Shown here piece after piece: positions 25,545 through 35,151 of a DNA stretch of 64,000 bases. Position numbers and translations under genes: made by a program. Positions within the stretch are counted from its first letter, which is position 1. Each line of letters opens with the position of its first letter. The notes under the pieces are model-generated. The model did no database searches, was not told the DNA's origin, and was given only the letters and a program-made list of their open reading frames with translations. This DNA comes from Oscillospiraceae bacterium (GTDB lineage Bacteria; Bacillota; Clostridia; Oscillospirales; Oscillospiraceae), in NCBI GenBank assembly GCA_022846075.1, contig AP025582.1:372001-436000 (forward strand), given 5' to 3'.

Positions 25545-25684
25545 ACGGGCGGCTGATAGCCGCCCCTACAAGGAAGAGAGAGTACAAACTATAGGCGGCA
25601 CCACGAGTATCACGTATCCATTACACAAAGCCCACCTATATGAGGTATCACATATTCGTAGGGGCGGATATTATCCGCCCGCCC
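25545..25684. repeat. Two short GCGGAT-type palindromes
   Basis: GGGCGGCTGATAGCCGCCCC at 25548-25567 (reverse orientation) and GTAGGGGCGGATATTATCCG onward at 25658-25684. The same unit, GTAGGGGCGGAT-N3-ATCCGCCCGCC, recurs at 27431-27456 and 27502-27529. They form simple hairpins and carry no coding sequence. Confidence 0.65.
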
Positions 25685-25878: not shown

Positions 25879-26124
25879 ATGGAAACGAGAATGATTTTTT
25901 CAGTCAGGATTCGGAATCTGCGCACAGCCAGCGGCTATTCCCAACAACAGATTGCCAAATTTCTGCAAGTGGCGCCCAACACATACTCCCGCTACGAGTG
26001 TGGAAAAATCCTGTGTCCCTTGGACATGGTGATTCGTCTCGCGCAGTACTTTCACACCAGCGTGGACTATCTTGCGGGGCTGACGGATACGCCCGCGCCG
26101 CATCCCCGCCGCAAGTCCCCCTAA
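25879..26124 (+). CDS. XRE-family HTH transcriptional regulator (short)
   Basis: 81 residues, a single helix-turn-helix (IRNLRTASGYSQQQIAKFLQ, then VAPNTYSRYECGK) with the C-terminal FHTSVDYLAGLTD common to small clostridial Cro/CI proteins. Its target is unknown. The ribosome binding site is weak and an in-frame ATG four codons later is possible. Base composition is more AT-rich than the neighbours and it is flanked by repeats, which fits an acquired gene. The aroF promoter begins 9 bp after its stop. Confidence 0.75.
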   Translation: METRMIFSVRIRNLRTASGYSQQQIAKFLQVAPNTYSRYECGKILCPLDMVIRLAQYFHTSVDYLAGLTDTPAPHPRRKSP

Positions 26125-26132
26125 ACTTTTTG

Positions 26133-26161
26133 TTGCCTTTTCCCCCCAACCGGAGTATAAT
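26133..26161 (+). promoter_or_regulatory. Promoter of the aroF leader
   Basis: TTGCCT (26133-26138), a 17-bp spacer and TATAAT (26156-26161). Transcription would start near 26168, giving a leader of about 240 bases before aroF. Confidence 0.75.
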
Positions 26162-26193
26162 AACCACAATCTTTCCAGAAGTGGGGCAGAAGC

Positions 26194-26298
26194 ATGAACC
26201 GAACCACCCTCACAACTGCATCCTTTTTTACCTTTGGCTGGGCTCGATTTATGAGCGCCGGCTATTTTGCCATGGGTGAAAAAGGATGGACGAAATGA
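26194..26298 (+). CDS. Probable attenuator leader peptide of aroF
   Basis: A 34-codon frame beginning about 26 bases after the predicted transcription start. Its peptide holds five Phe, two Trp and one Tyr (8 of 34), densest at residues 11-25 (FFTFGWARFMSAGYF). GTGGGG lies eight bases before the ATG, a modest ribosome binding site. The stop codon (26296-26298) lies inside AATGAGC, the 5' strand of the proposed antiterminator, exactly where a terminating ribosome would block it. I see the frame, the codons and the pairings directly; the regulatory role is inferred from the classical pheA/trp leader layout. Confidence 0.7.
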   Translation: MNRTTLTTASFFTFGWARFMSAGYFAMGEKGWTK

Positions 26299-26381
26299 GC
26301 TTGTCCGGCTGACCGCCGGGCGAGAATACCCGTATACAAGAGGGGCTCATTGATGTTCATTCATCAATGGGCCCCTTTTTT
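26294..26381 (+). terminator. Attenuator with alternative antiterminator before aroF
   Basis: Terminator: GGGGCTCATTGATG (26342-26355) pairs with CATCAATGGGCCCC (26362-26375), loop TTCATT, then TTTTTT (26376-26381). Antiterminator: AATGAGC (26294-26300) pairs with GCTCATT (26345-26351), extended by TTGT (26301-26304) with ACAA (26336-26339) across a five-base bulge. The two are mutually exclusive. A small CCGGC/GCCGG hairpin (26305-26319) fills the antiterminator loop. Confidence 0.8.
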
Positions 26382-26409
26382 GCCGTCAAAAGAGAAAGGA
26401 AGATGTAAA

Positions 26410-27429
26410 ATGGTAGTCGTTATGAAGCCGGGCACCCAGCAGCGGGAAATTGATAAATTGGTGGCCCAGTTCCAGCTCCAGGGCCTCCAGGTGGGCATCA
26501 CCAACGGCGTGGGGTGCACCATCCTGGGCCTCGTCGGGGACACCACCGCCGTGGACATGGACAAGATCTCCATCAACGAGCACGTGGAGCGGGTCATGCG
26601 GGTCCAGGAGCCCTTCAAAAAGGCCAACCGCAAGTTCCACCCCGAGGACACCGTGGTCACGGTGGGGGACGCCAAAATCGGTGGCGGGAACTTCTCCGTC
26701 ATCGCCGGCCCCTGCTCGGTGGAGAGTGAGGAACAGATCGTCGCCGTGGCCGAGGACGTCCAGCGCTCCGGCGCGGCCCTGATGCGGGGCGGCGCCTTCA
26801 AGCCCCGCACCTCCCCCTACTCCTTCCAGGGCATGGGCACCGAGGGCCTGGACCTCCTTTTGAAGGCCAAGGCCGCCACCGGCATGCCCATCGTCACCGA
26901 GATCATGAGCCCCAAGTACTGCCAGCTCTTCGAGGACAAGGTGGACGTCATCCAGGTGGGGGCCCGGAACATGCAGAACTTCGACCTTTTGAAAGAGGTG
27001 GGCAAGCTCTCCAAGCCCGTCCTTTTGAAGCGGGGCCTCTCCAACAGCTACGAGGAGTGGATCATGTCCGCCGAGTACATCATGTCGGAGGGCAACGAGA
27101 ACGTCATCCTCTGCGAGCGGGGCATCCGCACCTTTGAGACTTACACCCGCAACACCCTGGACGTCTCCGCCATCCCGGCGGTGAAGAAGATGAGCCACCT
27201 GCCGGTGATCGTGGACCCCTCCCACTCCGCCGGGATGTACTGGATGGTGGAGCCCCTGGCCCTGGCCGCCGTGGCGGCGGGGGCGGACGGCCTCATCATC
27301 GAGGTCCACAACGACCCGGCCAACGCCAAGTGCGACGGCCAGCAGTCCTTGACCCCGGAGCGCTTCGACAATCTGATGGGCAAGGTGTCCGCCCTGGTTG
27401 ACCTGGTGGGCAAAACTCTGATAAAATAA
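26410..27429 (+). CDS. aroF: 3-deoxy-7-phosphoheptulonate (DAHP) synthase, AroA-beta type
   Basis: 339 residues. It condenses phosphoenolpyruvate with erythrose 4-phosphate, the first step to chorismate. An N-terminal ferredoxin-like regulatory domain (VVVMKPGTQQREIDKLVAQF, about 1-75) precedes the beta/alpha barrel with GPCSVESEEQI, GARNMQNFDLLKEVG, KRGLSNSYEEW and DPSHSAGMYWMVEPLALAA. This is the Bacillus/Thermotoga type, in which the N-terminal domain gives feedback inhibition by an aromatic amino acid. The ATG at 26410 has AAAGGAAG upstream. A leader-peptide attenuator precedes the gene. aroB follows 122 bp downstream, across two short palindromic repeats. Confidence 0.95.
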   Translation: MVVVMKPGTQQREIDKLVAQFQLQGLQVGITNGVGCTILGLVGDTTAVDMDKISINEHVERVMRVQEPFKKANRKFHPEDTVVTVGDAKIGGGNFSVIAGPCSVESEEQIVAVAEDVQRSGAALMRGGAFKPRTSPYSFQGMGTEGLDLLLKAKAATGMPIVTEIMSPKYCQLFEDKVDVIQVGARNMQNFDLLKEVGKLSKPVLLKRGLSNSYEEWIMSAEYIMSEGNENVILCERGIRTFETYTRNTLDVSAIPAVKKMSHLPVIVDPSHSAGMYWMVEPLALAAVAAGADGLIIEVHNDPANAKCDGQQSLTPERFDNLMGKVSALVDLVGKTLIK

Positions 27430-27430
27430 C

Positions 27431-27529
27431 GTAGGGGCGGATATCATTCGCCCGCCACCCCCCAATACAGGCTGCGTCCGTTCTCCACCGCCGTCCCCAA
27501 TGTAGGGGCGGATACCATCCGCCCGCCAC
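27431..27529 (+). repeat. Two tandem GCGGAT-type palindromes between aroF and aroB
   Basis: GTAGGGGCGGATATCATTCG onward at 27431-27456 and GTAGGGGCGGATACCATCCG onward at 27502-27529, about 70 bp apart. Each can form an 8-10 bp hairpin, so they may modulate read-through from aroF to aroB. Confidence 0.65.
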
Positions 27530-27551: not shown

Positions 27552-28613
27552 ATGAAGACCCTCCGCGTCAGCTTACAGGAGCGCTCCTACGATATCCAAA
27601 TCGCCCCCGGCCTCCTGACCTCCGCCGGCGAGGCCATCCGGGCCGTCTGCCCCAAGGCCACCCGCCTTTTCGTGGTGACGGATTCCAACGTACACCCCCT
27701 CTACGCCCCGAGGCTGGAGGAGAGCCTAACCGCCGCCGGCTTCCAGGTCCAGATCCACGTCATCCCCGCCGGTGAGGCCTCCAAATCCGCCCTGCGCCTC
27801 TCCGAGCTGTGGGAGGCCATGCTGGACTTCGGTCTTACCCGCACTGACGCGGTGGTGGCCCTGGGCGGCGGTGTGGTGGGGGATCTGGCGGGCTTCGCCG
27901 CCGCCACCGTCCTCCGGGGGGTGGACTTCATCCAGCTCCCCACCACCCTCCTGGCCCAGGTGGATTCCTCCGTGGGCGGCAAGGTGGCGGTGGACCTCCG
28001 GGCGGGCAAGAACCTGGCCGGGGCCTTCTGGCAGCCCCGGCTGGTGCTCATGGATACCGACACCCTCGCCACCCTTCCCGACGCCACCTTCTCCGACGGC
28101 ATGGCGGAGGTCATCAAATACGGCTGTATCTGGGACAAGTTCTTCTTCGATTTCCTGGCCGCCCGCCCCACCCGGGCCGCTCTCACGGCGGAAATCGAAT
28201 CCATCCTGTATACCTGCTGTGAGATTAAACGCCAGGTAGTGGAATCCGACGAGCGGGACACCGGCAAGCGGATGCTCCTGAACTTCGGACATACCCTGGG
28301 CCACGCCTACGAGCTGGCGGGAAATTATGAAAAATGGACCCACGGCCAGGCGGTGGCGGCGGGCATGGTGGCCGCCGCCCGCCTTGGCGTGACGCTGGGT
28401 GTCACCCCCGCGGACGTCCCCGCCCATCTGGAAGCCGTCCTCGCCGCCCTGGACCTCCCCACCGCCATCCCCTGTGGCAGAGCCACCTACGCCGCCGCCA
28501 TCGGCCGGGACAAAAAGGGGGCGGGGGAGGATATCTCCCTCATCCTCCTGGAATCCCTGGGCCGTGCGGTGATCCAACAGCTCCCCAAGGCGGAACTGCT
28601 GGAATTGCTTTAG
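27552..28613 (+). CDS. aroB: 3-dehydroquinate synthase
   Basis: 353 residues. It converts DAHP to 3-dehydroquinate with NAD and a divalent metal. NAD-binding GGGVVGDLAGFAAATVLRG, the PTTLLAQVDSSVGGKVAVD block, and metal ligands in MAEVIKYG and FGHTLGHAYE are all present. AAAAAGGAAG lies upstream of the ATG. A 461-bp repeat-filled gap separates it from aroA. Confidence 0.95.
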   Translation: MKTLRVSLQERSYDIQIAPGLLTSAGEAIRAVCPKATRLFVVTDSNVHPLYAPRLEESLTAAGFQVQIHVIPAGEASKSALRLSELWEAMLDFGLTRTDAVVALGGGVVGDLAGFAAATVLRGVDFIQLPTTLLAQVDSSVGGKVAVDLRAGKNLAGAFWQPRLVLMDTDTLATLPDATFSDGMAEVIKYGCIWDKFFFDFLAARPTRAALTAEIESILYTCCEIKRQVVESDERDTGKRMLLNFGHTLGHAYELAGNYEKWTHGQAVAAGMVAAARLGVTLGVTPADVPAHLEAVLAALDLPTAIPCGRATYAAAIGRDKKGAGEDISLILLESLGRAVIQQLPKAELLELL

Positions 28614-28668
28614 CAGTGTTTTCCCGCCCCGGGCGGGGACGTATGGCAGGGTGGCCCTGCGGGGCAAA
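28614..28668. other. Short hairpins after aroB
   Basis: CCCGCCCCGGGCGGG (28625-28639) and GCAGGGTGGCCCTGC (28647-28661) are small hairpins without T-runs. The second resembles the hairpin at 9719-9736 beside the other 135-bp repeat copy. Confidence 0.4.
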
Positions 28669-28802
28669 AAAAGCCGGAACTAAATTTATAACTGGCAGTT
28701 CCTAAGGACCGGCGCTGACGTTTGTCAACTCGTGCTACTCTTAGCATTGCTTCCGCTAAACACTGTTGTACAGTCAGTATTTGCAACTCATAGGTACGCC
28801 TG
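28669..28802 (-). repeat. 135-bp repeat attached to the palindromic element, copy 2
   Basis: The reverse complement shares several blocks with 9469-9605 (CCTATGAGTTGCAAA, CGAGTTGACA, ATAAATTTAGTTC). It lies 21 bp from the same arm of the palindromic repeat as copy 1, so the two sequences form one composite element inserted in opposite orientations. Confidence 0.55.
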
Positions 28803-28823
28803 GGCTCGGAAAGTTTGTCAAAT

Positions 28824-28962
28824 AGGCTTCCCCTGGGGGAAGCTGTCGAGCGAAGCGAGACTGATGAGGGGAGCTTATCGGTTTGTAAAGCCTTTCCCAT
28901 GTCTGCAGTTCCCCTCATCCGTCAGCGGCTTCGCCGCTGCCACCTTCCCCCTGGGGAAGGCT
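28824..28962 (+). repeat. Composite palindromic repeat, copy 3
   Basis: The left arm begins AGGCTTCCCCTGGGGGAAGC with a GCGAAGCG hairpin and GATGAGGGGAG. The right arm reads CCCCTCATCCGTCAGCGGC and ends CCCCCTGGGGAAGGCT. The central 40 bases differ from the other copies while the arms are conserved. From 28963 to the aroA ribosome binding site (GGAAAGGAG, 29058-29066) I see only ACACATCAGCGGTA, shared with copy 2. Confidence 0.75.
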
Positions 28963-29074
28963 AGAACCAACCCTCTGTTAAGAACACATCAGCGGTAACG
29001 GGGAGCTTGTACGGCCGATAGCCGCCCAAACTTCCCCACAACACCCCTCAAGCACCAGGAAAGGAGCCCCCCCG

Positions 29075-30352
29075 ATGACCCTCACCCTCACCCCCCACAA
29101 GCTGTCCGGGAGCGTCACCCCGCCCCCATCCAAATCCCAGTCCCACCGTTTCCTCATCGCCGCCGCCCTGGCGGGAGCGGGGAGCGTCATCCACAACCTG
29201 GCCGACTCCCAGGACATCCAGGCCACCCGGCACTGCATGTCCGCCCTGCTGGACGCCGGGAAGGCGTGGTGGCCCCTCTTCGAGGTCCCGAAGGATATGC
29301 CGCCGGAGGAGCTCAAGACACGCCAGGCCCGCCAGGAGCGGGCCCTTCAAGCCACCGGCGAAGACCTCCCCCTGCTCTTCTGCGGCGAGTCCGGCTCCAC
29401 CCTCCGCTTCCTCATCCCTGTGGCCCTGGCCCTCCGGGGCGGGGCCCGCTTCTGGGGGGAGGGCCGCCTCATGGAGCGGCCCCAAAAGCCCTACTTCGAC
29501 CTCTTCGAGGAGAAGGGCGTCTACTACCGCCAGCGGGAAAACATCCTGGGTGTCCGGGGCGTCCTCGCCCCCGGCGAATACCGCCTCCCCGGCGACGTCT
29601 CCTCCCAGTTTATCACCGGCCTGCTCTACGCCCTGCCTCTGCTGGAGGGCAATTCAAAAATTATGTTAACCACAGATTTGGAGTCCCGGAACTACGTGGA
29701 CATGACCCTGGAAGCCCTGTCCGCCTTCAGGGTCAAGGCCGACTGGCTGGACGACCGCGCCCTGGCCGTCCCCGGCGGGCAGACCTACCGCCCGGCGGAG
29801 GTGGCCATCGAGGCCGACTGGTCCCAGGCGGGCTTCTGGTACGCCGCCAACGGCCTGGGGAACAGGGTTGATATAAAAAATATGAACCCCCGCTCCACCC
29901 AGGGCGACAGGAGGGCGGCGGCCTATTATGAAAAATTATGTCAATCTGGAATAGTAGACCTGGACGTCTCCCAGTGTCCCGATCTGGTGCCCGAGCTGGC
30001 CGTCCACGCCGCCCTTCGGGCGGGCCAGACCACCCATATCGTGAACGCCGCGCGCCTGCGGATGAAGGAGAGCGACCGCCTTGCCGCTGTCCGGGAAGAA
30101 TTATGTAAATTGGGCGCCCGGGTGACCGAGGGCCCTGACAGCCTCACCATCCAAGGGGTGGAGGCCCTCACCGGCGGCAAGGTAGACAGCCACAACGACC
30201 ACCGCATCGCCATGATGCTGGCGGTGGCCGCCACCCGGTGCGCCGGCCCTGTGACCCTCACCGGGGCGGAGAGCGTGCGGAAATCCTATCCGAATTTCTG
30301 GGAAGACTATACAGCCTTGGGCGGCCGGACCGCCCGGGAGGAGGACGTATGA
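29075..30352 (+). CDS. aroA: 3-phosphoshikimate 1-carboxyvinyltransferase (EPSP synthase)
   Basis: 425 residues. It joins phosphoenolpyruvate to shikimate 3-phosphate. The N-terminal LSGSVTPPPSKSQSHRFLIA, substrate loop LLFCGESGSTLRFLIPVALA and C-terminal KESDRLAAVREEL and DHRIAMMLAVAA are all conserved. The start has GGAAAGGAG upstream. The stop overlaps the aroC start (ATGA), beginning the tightly packed aroA-aroC part of the operon. Confidence 0.95.
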   Translation: MTLTLTPHKLSGSVTPPPSKSQSHRFLIAAALAGAGSVIHNLADSQDIQATRHCMSALLDAGKAWWPLFEVPKDMPPEELKTRQARQERALQATGEDLPLLFCGESGSTLRFLIPVALALRGGARFWGEGRLMERPQKPYFDLFEEKGVYYRQRENILGVRGVLAPGEYRLPGDVSSQFITGLLYALPLLEGNSKIMLTTDLESRNYVDMTLEALSAFRVKADWLDDRALAVPGGQTYRPAEVAIEADWSQAGFWYAANGLGNRVDIKNMNPRSTQGDRRAAAYYEKLCQSGIVDLDVSQCPDLVPELAVHAALRAGQTTHIVNAARLRMKESDRLAAVREELCKLGARVTEGPDSLTIQGVEALTGGKVDSHNDHRIAMMLAVAATRCAGPVTLTGAESVRKSYPNFWEDYTALGGRTAREEDV

Positions 30353-31392
30353 AGTATACCATCTTCGGCGAGTCCCACGGCCCCGCCATCGGCGTGGTGC
30401 TGGAGGGGGTGCCCGCCGGTCTGGAGCTGGACCTGGAGGCCATGGGAAAGGACCTCTCCCGCCGCGCCACCGGGAAGGACGCCCTCTCCACCGCCCGGAA
30501 GGAGGCGGACGTGGTGAACATCCTCTCCGGCGTCTTTGAGGGCAGGACCACCGGCGCTCCCCTGGCCCTGGTCATTGCCAACTCCGACCAGCACTCCGGG
30601 GACTATGAGGCCCTGCGCTACACCCCCCGGCCCAGCCACGGCGACTTCGCCGGGTTCATCCAGAGCAAGGGCTGTCTCGACTACCGGGGCGGCGGCCACT
30701 TCTCCGGCCGCCTCACCGCCCCTCTGGTGGCGGCGGGGTCGGTGGCCAAACAGCTTTTGGCCGAGAAAAACGTCTGGGTGGGGGCCCACATCAGCGCCAT
30801 CTACGGCATCACCGATGCCGCCCTGAACGATCCCCAGGAGCTTCGGGGGGTGGCGGATAAGCCCTTCCCCGTGCTGGACGACGCCAAGGGCGAGGAGATG
30901 AAAAAGGCCATTCTGGAGGCCAAGGAGGGACAGGACTCCGTGGGCGGCTCCATCGAGTGCGCCGTCACCGGCTTGCCCGTGGGCCTGGGGGCTCCGGACT
31001 TCGGCCGCAACGTGGAGGGGATTTTTTCCCAGTATCTCTTTGCCGTCCCGGCCGTGAAGGCGGTGGCCTTCGGCGCCGGAGTGGCCTTTGCCTATATGCG
31101 GGGCACCGAGGCCAACGACCCCTTCGAGGTGGTGGATGGTAAGGTAGTCACCCGCACCAACAACGCCGGCGGGGTCAACGGGGGCATCACCAACGGGATG
31201 CCGGTGACCTTCGAGGTGACCATGCGCCCCACCCCCTCCATCGCCCTGCCCCAGGAGAGCGTGGACCTGCGCACCGGGGAAGAGGTGGAGATTGAGATCA
31301 AGGGCCGCCACGACCCCTGCGTGGTCCACCGGGCGGTACCGGTGATTGAGGCCGCCGCTGCCTTAGCTGCCTGCGAGGTTTTGGGCATCTAG
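30349..31392 (+). CDS. aroC: Chorismate synthase
   Basis: 347 residues, slightly shorter than most. It needs reduced FMN and makes chorismate from EPSP. Signatures FGESHGPAIGVVLEGVP, GRATTGKDA-type region RRATGKDALSTARKE, RPSHGDFAGFIQ and RGGGHFSGRLTAPLVAAG are present. The start overlaps aroA. The last 27 codons are duplicated, with only synonymous changes, at 31547-31630 downstream, suggesting that the 3' end was replaced by recombination. Confidence 0.95.
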   Translation: MKYTIFGESHGPAIGVVLEGVPAGLELDLEAMGKDLSRRATGKDALSTARKEADVVNILSGVFEGRTTGAPLALVIANSDQHSGDYEALRYTPRPSHGDFAGFIQSKGCLDYRGGGHFSGRLTAPLVAAGSVAKQLLAEKNVWVGAHISAIYGITDAALNDPQELRGVADKPFPVLDDAKGEEMKKAILEAKEGQDSVGGSIECAVTGLPVGLGAPDFGRNVEGIFSQYLFAVPAVKAVAFGAGVAFAYMRGTEANDPFEVVDGKVVTRTNNAGGVNGGITNGMPVTFEVTMRPTPSIALPQESVDLRTGEEVEIEIKGRHDPCVVHRAVPVIEAAAALAACEVLGI

Positions 31393-31543
31393 GGGCGTGG
31401 CGGCCCGCGAGCGCAGGCGAGCCGCCGCGGAAAGCGGCGTAAATCCGAAGGGGAGCGGAGGATTTCCGCAGGCGGGATTTACTCCCGCCGAGGATGTGAA
31501 ATAGAAGGGGCCCCCGGAAAGCGCGGCGCGCTTTTTGGGGAAG
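31393..31543 (+). other. Inserted spacer rich in inverted repeats between aroC and its remnant
   Basis: 151 bp with GGCGGGATTTACTCCCGCC (31471-31489 region), AAATCC/GGATTT and AAAGCGCGGCGCGCTTT hairpins. No coding frame. It separates intact aroC from a degraded copy of its own 3' end, so it probably arrived with a recombination or insertion event. Confidence 0.6.
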
Positions 31544-31630
31544 TGCCACGACCCCTGCGTGGTCCACCGGGCGGTGCCGGTGATCGAGGCGGCGGCGGCC
31601 CTGGCGGCTTGCGAAGTGCTGGGAATTTGA
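31544..31630 (+). pseudogene. Remnant of a second aroC 3' end
   Basis: After CACGACCCCTGCGTGGTCCA, identical to intact aroC, the remnant keeps the same amino acids (HDPCVVHRAVPVIEAAAALA, then ACEVLGI and stop) but differs at many third codon positions. It lacks a start and everything upstream. It is probably the original aroC terminus, left in front of pheA when a homologous allele replaced the gene. Confidence 0.8.
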
Positions 31631-31641
31631 GGAGTGATCGC

Positions 31642-32799
31642 ATGAGTGAGTTAGAGGACTACCGCCGTCAGATCGACGACATCGACGCCCGGCTGGTGGA
31701 GCTGTTTTTGAAACGGATGGAGGTCACCGGCCGGGTGGGGGCCTACAAAAAGGCCAACGGGATCCCGGTGCTGGACGCCGAGCGGGAGCGGCGGGTCATC
31801 GCCGCCAAGACGGCCCTGACCGACGACCCGGCCCGCCGGGCCGACCTGGCCGTCCTGTATGAGTCCATCATGGCCATCTCCCGCCGCCAGCAGCGGACGC
31901 TGGTGCGGGAGGGGGCGGAGGACGCGGGCTATGCCCGGTGGCTCAAGGCTCTGAAGCGCCGCCGCTCCCCGGTGCGGGACCCCCGGGTGGTCTACCAGGG
32001 GGAGCCGGGGGCGTACAGCGAGGAGGCCGCCGCCGGATTCTTCGGGGAGGGCGTCCGGGCCAAGGGCCTGCCCTGGTTCGGGGACGTGTTCGAGGCCCTG
32101 GCGGCGGGGGGCGCCGACTATGCCGTCCTCCCCATCGAAAATTCCTCTACCGGTTCCATCCGGCAGGTCTACGACCTGCTGGCCCAATATGATTTCTCCC
32201 TGGTGGGGGAGTGGCAGGTGAAGGTGGAGCACTGTCTGGCCGCGCTCCCCGGGGTGACGCTGGAGGAGATCGAGACGGTCTATTCCCATGAGCAGGGCTT
32301 GATGCAGTGCGACAAGTTCCTGGACAGCCACCGCCACTGGCGGCGGGTGCCCACCCTGGACACTGCGGGCTCCGCCAAGCAGGTGAAAGAGACGGGGGAC
32401 ATGAGGGCCGCCGCCATCTGCTCCAAGCGGGCGGCTAAGCTTTACGGGCTCCGGGTCCTGGCCGAGGGCATCAACCATAACGCCGCCAACGTCACCCGGT
32501 TCGTGGTGGTCTCGCCGGTACCCGAGCTCCGGGAGGGGAGAAACAAGATCTCCGCCCTCTTTTCCCTGCCCCACCAGACCGGCTCCCTCCACGAGATCCT
32601 GACCATTTTCGCCGTACAAGGATTGAACCTTCAGAAGATCGAGTCCCGCCCCATCCCCGGACGGGGGTGGGAGTACCTCTTCTTCCTGGAGTGCACCGGC
32701 GACCTGCTGGCCCCCGGTATGGACGGGGTGCTTCACGAACTCTCCCAGCTCACCGCCGATTTCCGGGTGTTGGGCAATTTTCGGGGGTATGAGGGATGA
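31642..32799 (+). CDS. pheA: Bifunctional chorismate mutase / prephenate dehydratase (P-protein)
   Basis: 385 residues. An AroQ-type chorismate mutase (about 1-90, YRRQIDDIDARLVELFLKRM), prephenate dehydratase (about 115-290, VVYQGEPGAYSEEAAAGFFG; NVTRFVVVS) and a C-terminal ACT domain with the phenylalanine-binding LQKIESRPIPGRGWEYLFF. It makes phenylpyruvate and should be feedback-inhibited by Phe. GAGGAG eight bases upstream fixes the ATG at 31642. It overlaps aroK. Confidence 0.95.
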   Translation: MSELEDYRRQIDDIDARLVELFLKRMEVTGRVGAYKKANGIPVLDAERERRVIAAKTALTDDPARRADLAVLYESIMAISRRQQRTLVREGAEDAGYARWLKALKRRRSPVRDPRVVYQGEPGAYSEEAAAGFFGEGVRAKGLPWFGDVFEALAAGGADYAVLPIENSSTGSIRQVYDLLAQYDFSLVGEWQVKVEHCLAALPGVTLEEIETVYSHEQGLMQCDKFLDSHRHWRRVPTLDTAGSAKQVKETGDMRAAAICSKRAAKLYGLRVLAEGINHNAANVTRFVVVSPVPELREGRNKISALFSLPHQTGSLHEILTIFAVQGLNLQKIESRPIPGRGWEYLFFLECTGDLLAPGMDGVLHELSQLTADFRVLGNFRGYEG

Positions 32800-33287
32800 A
32801 AAACATCATACTGATCGGCATGATGGGCTGCGGCAAGACCACCGTGGGACATCTGCTGGCGGGCAGGCTCAAACGGACGCTGGTGGATACCGACCAGCTG
32901 ATCGAGGCCCGGGAGGGGCTGACTGTTTCCGAGATCTTCGCCACCGAGGGGGAGGGGTATTTCCGCTCCCTGGAGTTGGGCGTGGCCCAGGCTCTTTCCC
33001 TGCGCAGCGACCTTATTATCGCCTGCGGCGGCGGTCTTCCCCTTCAGGACGCCGCTATCTCGGCGCTGAAGGAAAGCGGCACCGTGTTCTGGCTGGACCG
33101 GGACGCCGGGGAGATCTACGACAGCGAGAGCCTGGCCGACCGGCCCCTGGCCCAGGACGGACGGGAGGCCTTCCTGGCGAAGGCGGCGGAGCGGCGGAGC
33201 GTCTATGAGAAGTGGGCCGACCGCGTCATCACGGACTTTACCTCGTCCGTCTCCACGGCGGCGAGGGTCATGGAGGGATTGGAATGA
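32796..33287 (+). CDS. aroK: Shikimate kinase
   Basis: 163 residues. P-loop GMMGCGKTTVGHLLAGRLKR, substrate-binding DTDQLIEAREG and CGGGLPLQDAA, and DRPLAQDG of the lid region. It phosphorylates shikimate with ATP. The start overlaps pheA by four bases and the stop overlaps aroQ by four, indicating coupled translation. Confidence 0.95.
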   Translation: MKNIILIGMMGCGKTTVGHLLAGRLKRTLVDTDQLIEAREGLTVSEIFATEGEGYFRSLELGVAQALSLRSDLIIACGGGLPLQDAAISALKESGTVFWLDRDAGEIYDSESLADRPLAQDGREAFLAKAAERRSVYEKWADRVITDFTSSVSTAARVMEGLE

Positions 33288-33715
33288 AATTTCTCATCAT
33301 CAACGGGCCCAACCTGAACCTGCTGGGCAGGCGGGAGCCGGGCATCTACGGCCAGGAGAATTACGAGAGCCTGTGCCAGCGGCTCCGGGCCTTTGCCGCC
33401 GCTCACGGCAGCACGGCGGAGTGCTTCCAGTCCAACCACGAGGGGGCCATCATCGACGCCATCCACGCCGCCGACGGAGTCTATGACGCCATCATCATGA
33501 ACCCCGGGGCCTTTACCCATTACAGCTACGCCATCCTGGACGCCCTGAAGGCGGTGGGCGTGCCCTGCGTGGAGGTCCACATCTCCAATGTCCACCAGCG
33601 GGAGGAGTTCCGGCACAAGTCGGTCACCGCCCCCGCCTGCGTGGGGCAGGTGTGCGGCCTGGGCCTCTACGGCTATGAGGCGGCCATGGGGTACTTCCTG
33701 GACCAGAAGGACTGA
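33284..33715 (+). CDS. aroQ: 3-dehydroquinate dehydratase, type II
   Basis: 143 residues, the dodecameric type II enzyme. The signatures INGPNLNLLGRREPGIYG, QSNHEGAIIDAIHAA, NPGAFTHYSYAILDAL and EVHISNVHQREEFRHKS carry the catalytic Tyr, His and Arg. It makes 3-dehydroshikimate for the AroE module encoded 29 bp downstream. The start codon overlaps the aroK stop. Confidence 0.95.
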   Translation: MKFLIINGPNLNLLGRREPGIYGQENYESLCQRLRAFAAAHGSTAECFQSNHEGAIIDAIHAADGVYDAIIMNPGAFTHYSYAILDALKAVGVPCVEVHISNVHQREEFRHKSVTAPACVGQVCGLGLYGYEAAMGYFLDQKD

Positions 33716-33744
33716 AACAGGCTTGCCGGAGACGGAGGGAGACC

Positions 33745-35151
33745 ATGACAAAAGTGACCGTGCCCAAGGTGGGCATGCGTGTGATCAAGACGGCGGTGGC
33801 GGTGATACTCTCCTACCTTTTGTTTGTCCCCTTCGGCCTTCTGTACGACAGCGGCCGGCCGGGGGTGCTGGGGTATGTGGGGCCCCTCTACGCCTGCATC
33901 GCCTGTATCGTGTGTATGCAGAGCAGTATGGGCCAGACCCTTCGGCAGGGGGTCTCCCGCTTCATCGGCGTCTTTGTGGGCGGGCTCCTGGGGGCGGCCA
34001 CCCTGCTGTTGGGGGAACGGCTGGATGCCCCGCTGGTTCTGGTGCCTGTGCTGGGACTGGTGTGCGTGGCGGGGCTGTGGATCTGCCAGCTCATCGGGCG
34101 GCCCGCCGCCTGCGGCATGGCCTGTATCGTGCCCTGCGTCATGCTCATCACCGGGGTCACCGGCGTGGCCCGGTATTACTACGCCGCCGCCCGGATTATG
34201 GAGACGGTGGTGGGGGTGGCCGTGGCCTTCGCGGTCAACGCCGCCCTGCCCGACCACCGGCCGCCGGAACAGGAGGAGGAAAAAGAGATGCGCGTGGAAG
34301 TGAAAAACACCACCCGGAAGCTCTGTGTCATCGGCGACCCGGTGCTCCACTCCAAGTCGCCCATTCTTCAAAACGCCATGATCTCCGCCCTGGGCCTGGA
34401 CTATATCTATTTATGTCAACCTGTTCCGAAGGGGGAGGCGGGCCGGTGGCTGGAGTGTGCCGCCTACGCGGGATATGCCGGGTTCAATGCCACCATGCCC
34501 CATAAGGAAGAGCTCTTTCCCCTGATGGACGAGGTGGACGAGGGGGCCCGACGGTGCGGCGCGGTGAATACGGTTTGTATTTGTGACGGGAAATATTACG
34601 GATATAACACCGATGGAGCCGGATTTCTCCGGGCCCTGGCGGATTTGGGCGTGGAGCCCGCCGGGAAGCGGGTGACCCTGCTGGGCTCCGGCGGCGCCGC
34701 CAAGGCGGTGGCTCTGGCCCTGGCCGGGGCGGGAGCCAAGGTCACCGTGTGCAACCGCACGGTGGAAAAGGCGGAGGCGCTGTGCGCCGCCGACCCGGCC
34801 AGCCTGACCCCCGCCGGGTTTGAAATTGAAACTTTATGTAAACTTGCTTCTGAGAGCGATGTGCTGGTGAACTGCACCTCCCTGGGGATGGCGGGCACCG
34901 GAACCCAGTTTGCCGACCTGTCCTTCCTGGACTGCCTGCCCCCCCACGCGGCGGTGTGCGACGTCATCTACGCCCCGGAGGAGACCGAGCTGCTCCGGCG
35001 GGCCCGGGCGGGGGGGTACCCGGCCATGAACGGCCTGGGGATGCTCCTCCATCAGGCTATCCTGGCTCTGGAGCATTTCACGGGGGAGAAGCTGGACGTG
35101 GAGAAGGCCAAGGCGGCGGCCCTGGCGGCGCTGGAGGCGGAGAGGACATGA
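33745..35151 (+). CDS. aroE: Membrane (aromatic-acid-exporter-like) domain fused to shikimate dehydrogenase
   Basis: 468 residues in one uninterrupted frame. Residues 1-170 are a polytopic membrane domain with about six hydrophobic segments (KTAVAVILSYLLFVPFGLLY; GVSRFIGVFVGGLLGAATLL), resembling the N-terminal domain of aromatic acid exporter (ArAE/FUSC-type) proteins. Residues 182-468 are a full-length AroE: GDPVLHSKSPILQNAM, FNATMPHKEE, GAVNT, NTDGAGFLRAL, NADP-binding LLGSGGAAKAVALAL and the final LLHQA. An acidic linker (EQEEEKEM) contains GGAGGAGG seven bases before an in-frame ATG at 34288, so a stand-alone 287-residue AroE could also be made. Upstream GGAGGGAG supports the start at 33745. 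The usual cytoplasmic domain of the exporter family is missing, replaced by AroE. Confidence 0.85.
   Translation: MTKVTVPKVGMRVIKTAVAVILSYLLFVPFGLLYDSGRPGVLGYVGPLYACIACIVCMQSSMGQTLRQGVSRFIGVFVGGLLGAATLLLGERLDAPLVLVPVLGLVCVAGLWICQLIGRPAACGMACIVPCVMLITGVTGVARYYYAAARIMETVVGVAVAFAVNAALPDHRPPEQEEEKEMRVEVKNTTRKLCVIGDPVLHSKSPILQNAMISALGLDYIYLCQPVPKGEAGRWLECAAYAGYAGFNATMPHKEELFPLMDEVDEGARRCGAVNTVCICDGKYYGYNTDGAGFLRALADLGVEPAGKRVTLLGSGGAAKAVALALAGAGAKVTVCNRTVEKAEALCAADPASLTPAGFEIETLCKLASESDVLVNCTSLGMAGTGTQFADLSFLDCLPPHAAVCDVIYAPEETELLRRARAGGYPAMNGLGMLLHQAILALEHFTGEKLDVEKAKAAALAALEAERT
34271..34290 (+). promoter_or_regulatory. Internal ribosome binding site and start within the aroE fusion
   Basis: AGGAGGAGG followed by ATG at 34288. 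The spacing is ideal and the resulting product has the canonical AroE length, so dual translation is plausible. Confidence 0.55.

Follow-up and report, generated by a model that had tools for sequence, protein, structure and literature searches.

We found that the DAHP synthase gene aroF1 (hereafter aroF; 26410-27429, + strand) is very probably controlled by a ribosome-mediated transcription attenuator responding to the supply of phenylalanyl-tRNA. The gene lies in a window of 64,000 nucleotides, the whole stretch of Oscillospiraceae DNA that was analyzed, and the same control probably reaches aroB, aroA, aroC, pheA, aroK, aroQ and aroE downstream of it (27552-35151, + strand). This reading draws on features seen by sequence comparison, namely a conserved leader frame with its Phe codons, a covarying terminator, conserved and mutually exclusive pairings, a promoter and the gene content of the cluster. 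All aromatic amino acids draw on the carbon flow that DAHP synthase sets. The identity of aroF was assigned from NF006421 and TIGR01361, over cut-off; for aroA, pheA and aroK the family matches stay below the curated cut-offs. The leader carries a run of codons for a product of the operon, that is, Phe codons ahead of a cluster with pheA, which encodes chorismate mutase-prephenate dehydratase (below the curated cut-off). At the far end of the cluster, a single frame (33745-35151, + strand) encodes shikimate dehydrogenase AroE as its residues 193-463, preceded by some 180 N-terminal residues that look membrane-like by eye, which represents either a fusion or a missed start.

The original prediction for this region had proposed a promoter followed by a 34-codon frame with eight aromatic codons, and both were recovered. 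The sigma-70 type promoter TTGCCT-17 bp-TATAAT (26133-26161, + strand) was found by sequence scan and in genus orthologs. TATAAT precedes the leader in all 15 sampled genus orthologs and TTGCCT stands at 17 bp in 12 of them, the remaining three having TTGCAA, TTGCGT, or ATTGCA at 18 bp. The leader frame (26194-26298, + strand) has 34 codons, among them 5 Phe, 2 Trp and 1 Tyr, and translates to MNRTTLTTASFFTFGWARFMSAGYFAMGEKGWTK. Its Shine-Dalgarno sequence in the window, GTGGGG (26181-26186, + strand), is weak and doubles as the 5' arm of a hairpin that we call P0; GTGAGG takes its place in 39/63 relatives. The promoter thus stands over a short leader frame with a start codon and a ribosome-binding site. 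The window holds 73 ATG-started open reading frames of 200 aa or more, counting both strands and overlapping frames; aroF is the only one with a short frame in its 400 nt of upstream sequence that follows a Shine-Dalgarno sequence and reaches 6 or more aromatics per 18 residues. A second mini-frame overlapping the leader stop codon (ATGAGC...) was rejected by eye, its length not being conserved. Directly upstream of the leader promoter lies an open reading frame of 81 residues (25879-26124, + strand), whose product we take to resemble a small helix-turn-helix regulator. We also observed a palindromic repeat, TAGGGGCGGAT-N3-ATCCGCCCGCC, flanking the leader and the aroF gene at 25659-25683 and 27503-27527 (two exact copies versus none in shuffles), with a looser copy near 27432.

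The leader transcript (26168-26390) folds at -96.1 kcal/mol with a z score of -5.6, a value equaled by none of 200 shuffles. All of its elements lie on the + strand. In P0 the Shine-Dalgarno sequence pairs with CCTCAC (26208-26213) inside the leader frame, at codons 5-7. Further along, strand 1 (26218-26232; GCATCCTTTTTTACC, coding for Ala-Ser-Phe-Phe-Thr) pairs in the minimum free energy (MFE) fold with 26275-26289 (GGTGAAAAAGGATGG), which overlaps the antiterminator strand. This long in-frame hairpin corresponds to the 1:2 pairing in classical attenuators, linking the control codons with the antiterminator strand; neither it nor the P0 hairpin, which sequesters the Shine-Dalgarno sequence, had been part of the original prediction. 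It encloses an inner hairpin, P2 (26237-26262), with an invariant GATTT in the loop from the Arg-Phe codons CGA-TTT. Strand 2, the 5' arm of the antiterminator (AUGGACG.AAUGAGC, 26286-26300), is followed by a hairpin P3 (26301-26323) within the antiterminator loop and by strand 3 (26345-26360), the antiterminator 3' arm that is common to the 5' arm of the terminator. The intrinsic terminator itself (26342-26381), located between leader and gene, has a 14 bp stem (26342-26355 with 26362-26375) and a T6 tract (26376-26381), exactly as had been predicted. A consensus terminator scan of the window did not list it, perhaps because the stem runs into the T tract.

We folded 26284-26360 alone, a segment that mimics strand 1 held by a ribosome with the last terminator arm not yet made. 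The antiterminator was its MFE structure at -32.6 kcal/mol (z -4.3), formed by 26286-26292 and 26294-26300 with 26354-26360 and 26345-26351, respectively. Once complete, the terminator wins over the antiterminator in the fold, and the two exclude each other. The predicted antiterminator strand AATGAGC (26294-26300) does contain the leader stop codon and does complement GCTCATT (26345-26351), but the full antiterminator has about double the predicted length (26286-26300 with 26345-26360).

On this anatomy the switch would operate as follows. With no ribosome on the leader, strand 2 would be taken up by the Phe codons of strand 1, leaving the terminator to form. A ribosome translating past the Phe codons to the stop codon would cover strand 2, and again the terminator would form and transcription would end. 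Stalling at the Phe codons, or perhaps the Tyr codon, would instead keep the ribosome on strand 1; strand 2 (26286-26300) could then join strand 3 (26345-26360) while the last terminator arm was still to be transcribed, so that transcription would read through into aroF and presumably into the genes co-transcribed with it. By pairing the Shine-Dalgarno sequence with codons 5-7, P0 probably restrains renewed initiation on the leader and so leaves the decision to a single ribosome.

We then compared the leader among relatives. A close set was assembled from 87 chosen loci, 12 of which were without an [ATNCGQ]RF-pattern leader or upstream sequence; L048, L049, L052, L053, L055, L062, L065 and L067 were excluded by hand for an absent or weak leader, the upstream sequence was unusable for L193 and L226, and removal of duplicates left 63 sequences, so that frequencies in the 63 are conditional on the pattern. 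All 15 genus loci were retained, and together with L044 from another genus they form the 16 closest sequences. A leader was found in the same place in 15/15 sampled paralog-1 genus orthologs, and four of its positions retain Phe, in 15, 14, 14 and 11 of the 15. The original prediction would have been overturned by close relatives with a broken frame or lost aromatic codons and an intact terminator; instead, Phe was kept across the 15 orthologs. In one of them (L007, a draft genome with Ns) the leader stop codon is lost and the frame runs on. Together with the anatomy and the exclusive pairings, this conservation of Phe favors the predicted ribosome-mediated attenuation.

Pairing was well preserved for most elements. 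Among the 16 closest sequences it reached 98.2% for the terminator, 94.6% for the antiterminator core, 100% for the antiterminator outer part, 96.9% for P0 (slid 34-65%), 75.9% for hairpin 1:2 (slid 49-62%) and 71.7% for P3, with slid controls for all these elements between 12 and 65%. The corresponding values in the 63 family sequences were 93.0%, 87.3%, 80.8%, 80.4%, 66.6% and 50.3%, and slid controls for hairpin 1:2 gave 45-62% over both sets. P0 occurs as GTGAGG with CCTCAC, or in a longer form, in 34/63 family sequences and as the variant GTAAGGAA with TTTCTTAC in one. Covariation had been expected in both alternative stems and was strong in the terminator, for which 98.0% of cells were paired in a 26-sequence alignment and the covariation score was reached by 0/500 shuffles. 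In the antiterminator (97.2% paired versus 33-56% slid) the changes were mostly one-sided; only 1/7 pairs changed on both sides and the score was reached by 11/500 shuffles, a weak signal. P2 was paired at 90.2% with little covariation, and its percentage paired alone exceeds shuffles. RNAalifold recovered the terminator alone from all 63 family sequences (the column-shuffle control on these was void, all values being zero) and hairpin 1:2, P2 and P0 only from the genus set. Substitution rates by codon position were flat across the leader (0.26/0.32/0.285), which speaks against protein-like selection, and we therefore attribute its conservation to particular codons and to the RNA.

Such flat rates, and the absence of the hairpin from the consensus scan, would also suit an ordinary terminator, belonging either to the frame at 25879-26124 or to a leader RNA under other control, with the aromatic frame arising by chance. 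A conserved promoter, however, separates the upstream frame from the hairpin, and aromatic leaders are no isolated occurrence. Among 154 aroF upstreams (both paralogs, several loci per genus), 118 reach at least 6 aromatics per 18 aa with a mean best of 6.7 versus 2.3 in shuffles, and in 103/154 at most 1 of 60 shuffles matched the aromatic count; the window locus itself scored zero in this test because the Shine-Dalgarno pattern had no GGGG. Furthermore, the Phe and Tyr content of the leaders follows the genes behind them. We regard a chance frame before an ordinary terminator as very unlikely.

At leader codons 18-19 (26245-26250), CGA-TTT showed no synonymous change in 63/63 family sequences; the Arg-Phe residues were required by the search pattern and their presence is hence conditional, but the identity of the codons is not. 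This invariance may reflect a constraint on the RNA loop or a slow codon pair. In TnaC, arrest by the nascent peptide senses an aromatic compound, and a comparable arrest here, rather than hunger for charged tRNA, would agree with the invariant codon pair and with the similar F.SAGYF/L end that recurs in Clostridium leaders. However, CGA-TTT sits at the loop of P2, where a constraint on the RNA explains its invariance equally well, while the rest of the peptide varies, the many separate Phe/Tyr codons fit codon hunger and the Tyr-coded paralog described below follows its product. We give stalling by the nascent peptide little credence and favor stalling at hungry Phe codons.

The two Trp codons raise the question of whether tryptophan could be the signal, and Trp indeed occupies column 18 of the leader alignment in 46/63 family sequences. 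Within the genus, however, 3 of the 15 orthologs have Trp in the column of Trp16, against 10 with Tyr and 2 with Gln, and Trp32 exists in only 5/15. In 9 sequences Tyr at the Trp16 position is accompanied by Met across P2, a combination never seen with Trp, so Trp there looks structural. A search of the organism's own genome for anthranilate synthase component I, trpE, with one family (PF04715) gave no hit, which also argues against Trp, and we consider a tryptophan signal extremely improbable. This agrees with the original proposal that Phe/Tyr rather than the last Trp is read, given that Phe is conserved. As for the organism itself, the lack of a hit to this one family perhaps points to a tryptophan auxotroph.

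Between Phe and Tyr, Phe is the likelier signal for the aroF-pheA cluster, since a Tyr-type leader sits on a second DAHP synthase gene before tyrA. This gene, aroF2, encodes a protein 62% identical to the first in the same genome and is followed by tyrA. Ahead of it stands a leader of its own, MVNQNRHGYCYYYRYCDSGFLSCP, which by sequence follows the same plan but is coded for Tyr; an in-frame hairpin, a terminator and a complementary strand were recognized there by eye. In 18 genomes with both leaders (18 pairs from 20 paralog-2 loci, L104 and L105 excluded), Phe, Tyr and Trp codons number 89:30:11 in paralog 1 and 16:94:3 in paralog 2. Phe outnumbers Tyr in 17/18 paralog-1 leaders (one tie), and Tyr outnumbers Phe in 18/18 paralog-2 leaders. 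The gene neighborhoods divide likewise: tyrA was found in 21/21 stretches at paralog 2 and 0/48 paralog-1 loci, and aroB lies within the flanks of 47/48 paralog-1 loci, the one miss being a contig end. Of the two excluded loci, L104 carries an in-frame TAG in its leader and comes from the same draft genome with Ns as L007. The other, L105 (paralog 2 of genome G006), is without a Tyr leader or terminator between a promoter-like sequence and the gene, unlike other members of the genus, and appears to be a natural loss.

Attenuators of this kind are known, but the leader family and the split of Phe and Tyr between isozymes appear to be new. The pheL-pheA and trpL-trpE attenuators of E. coli follow the strand logic 1:2, 2:3, 3:4 with codons for the product. 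The leader described here shares that logic and such codons, by which we liken it to them; in contrast to them, its target is the entry of the pathway and P0 sequesters the Shine-Dalgarno sequence. An attenuator before a DAHP synthase gene, aroR-aroF of Corynebacterium glutamicum, was reportedly described by Neshat et al. in 2014. Two accounts, one of which also mentions the E. coli attenuators (PMC11802643), describe aroF of C. glutamicum as controlled by a Phe-Tyr-Phe leader that responds to limitation of Phe, not Tyr (PMC11802643, PMC4046766). Compared by these descriptions, both leader peptides place Phe codons before a DAHP synthase operon, but C. glutamicum belongs to another phylum and its Phe-Tyr-Phe is short in comparison with the long aromatic run here. 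The uORFC-13-1 motif, too, precedes aroF and combines a predicted uORF containing Phe codon(s) with a terminator next to it; its 24 representatives were reported from Acholeplasma and environmental sequences only (PMC8632094). For His and Leu, Firmicutes have known or predicted attenuators with leader peptides (PMC9413887, PMC2965389, PMC5794164), which resemble the present case in placing leader-peptide control where T-boxes are expected, although amino acid and operons differ. A 2005 study assigned phenylalanine to attenuators and tyrosine to T-boxes (PMC1262725). In our searches of open-access literature, which leaves out most subscription journals, no listed paper dealt with leader-peptide control of aromatic genes in Clostridia or with a Tyr-responsive leader peptide; if our reading is true, the aroF2-tyrA leader would be a tyrosine-specific leader-peptide attenuator.

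Beyond the genus, an aromatic leader was found in 90/113 other, mostly more distant aroF upstreams (85 distinct leaders), a set that includes other genera of the same family, second copies, near-duplicates and the genus paralog-2 locus L022; two of the 90 (L127 and L152) are doubtful. The terminator score exceeded all 20 own shuffles at 85/90 leader-bearing loci; a lenient test was passed by 87/90 loci, but also by 808/1800 shuffles. Complementarity between the terminator 5' arm and the leader end had a median rank of 7 among 100 mononucleotide shuffles, with 35/87 loci at rank 5 or better. At the level of the class, which judging by named relatives is Clostridia, a leader was present in 31 of 40 loci from 39 families, hand-picked among the matches listed; 181 of the 243 genomes had a match. 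Among the carriers with a species name are Flavonifractor plautii, Clostridium beijerinckii and Clostridium magnum.

In the remaining 23/113 loci no leader was detected by a search reaching 460 nt back; some of these may be misses, and one had just 99 nt upstream. The T-box riboswitch (RF00230) senses tRNA charging before amino-acid genes, and an Rfam scan of all 23 placed one before aroF in three (L027, L078 and L080), in line with the original remark that Firmicutes are better known for T-box control of such genes. With these three loci and 13 T-box matches in the organism's own genome, 5 of them over cut-off, one could suppose that the frame is incidental and that the terminator answers to a T-box or to some other ligand-binding leader (riboswitch or protein). 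Yet the aroF upstream is without an Rfam match at gathering score, whether to the T-box or to the amino-acid leader families (Phe, Trp, His, Leu and Thr are represented in Rfam), and all 13 T-boxes are more than 50 kb away from both genes for DAHP synthase. Control by such a ligand-binding leader is in our view highly improbable, and a ribosome-read leader remains the preferred explanation. The sole Rfam gathering-score match in the window was an S10-Clostridia ribosomal protein leader (RF03136, 36369-36441, + strand, 43 bits).

Lastly, we considered how the leaders are related to each other. An HMM built on the close leaders placed 20/85 distinct other leaders above all 50 shuffles, and 33/85 at two or fewer. 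Shared ancestry of all leaders was not borne out by this profile, as 10/14 Clostridium leaders ranked 12th or worse. The P2 motif, by comparison with a shuffled rate of 0.3%, was found in 20/90 other leaders and 23/63 close leaders, using a pattern composed after the sequences were seen; in 10 of the 20 other leaders the loop-closing pair is U with U. A P2-like hairpin of similar shape is present in Clostridium leaders, and the proposed common descent of the leaders rests on the P2 motif instead of the HMM profile. We judge it fairly probable that an ancient family of leader-peptide attenuators prevails on DAHP synthase genes across much of Clostridia and was duplicated with the enzyme, a Phe copy going with aro-pheA and a Tyr copy with aroF2-tyrA. 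If the leaders work as we infer, many gut and soil Clostridia would control DAHP synthase by ribosome stalling where T-boxes are expected, and leader codons would assign the two isozymes to Phe and Tyr. They would then offer a natural system for change of amino-acid specificity in attenuators and a candidate new RNA family, for which about 150 distinct leader ORFs (85 + 63) make a starting set.
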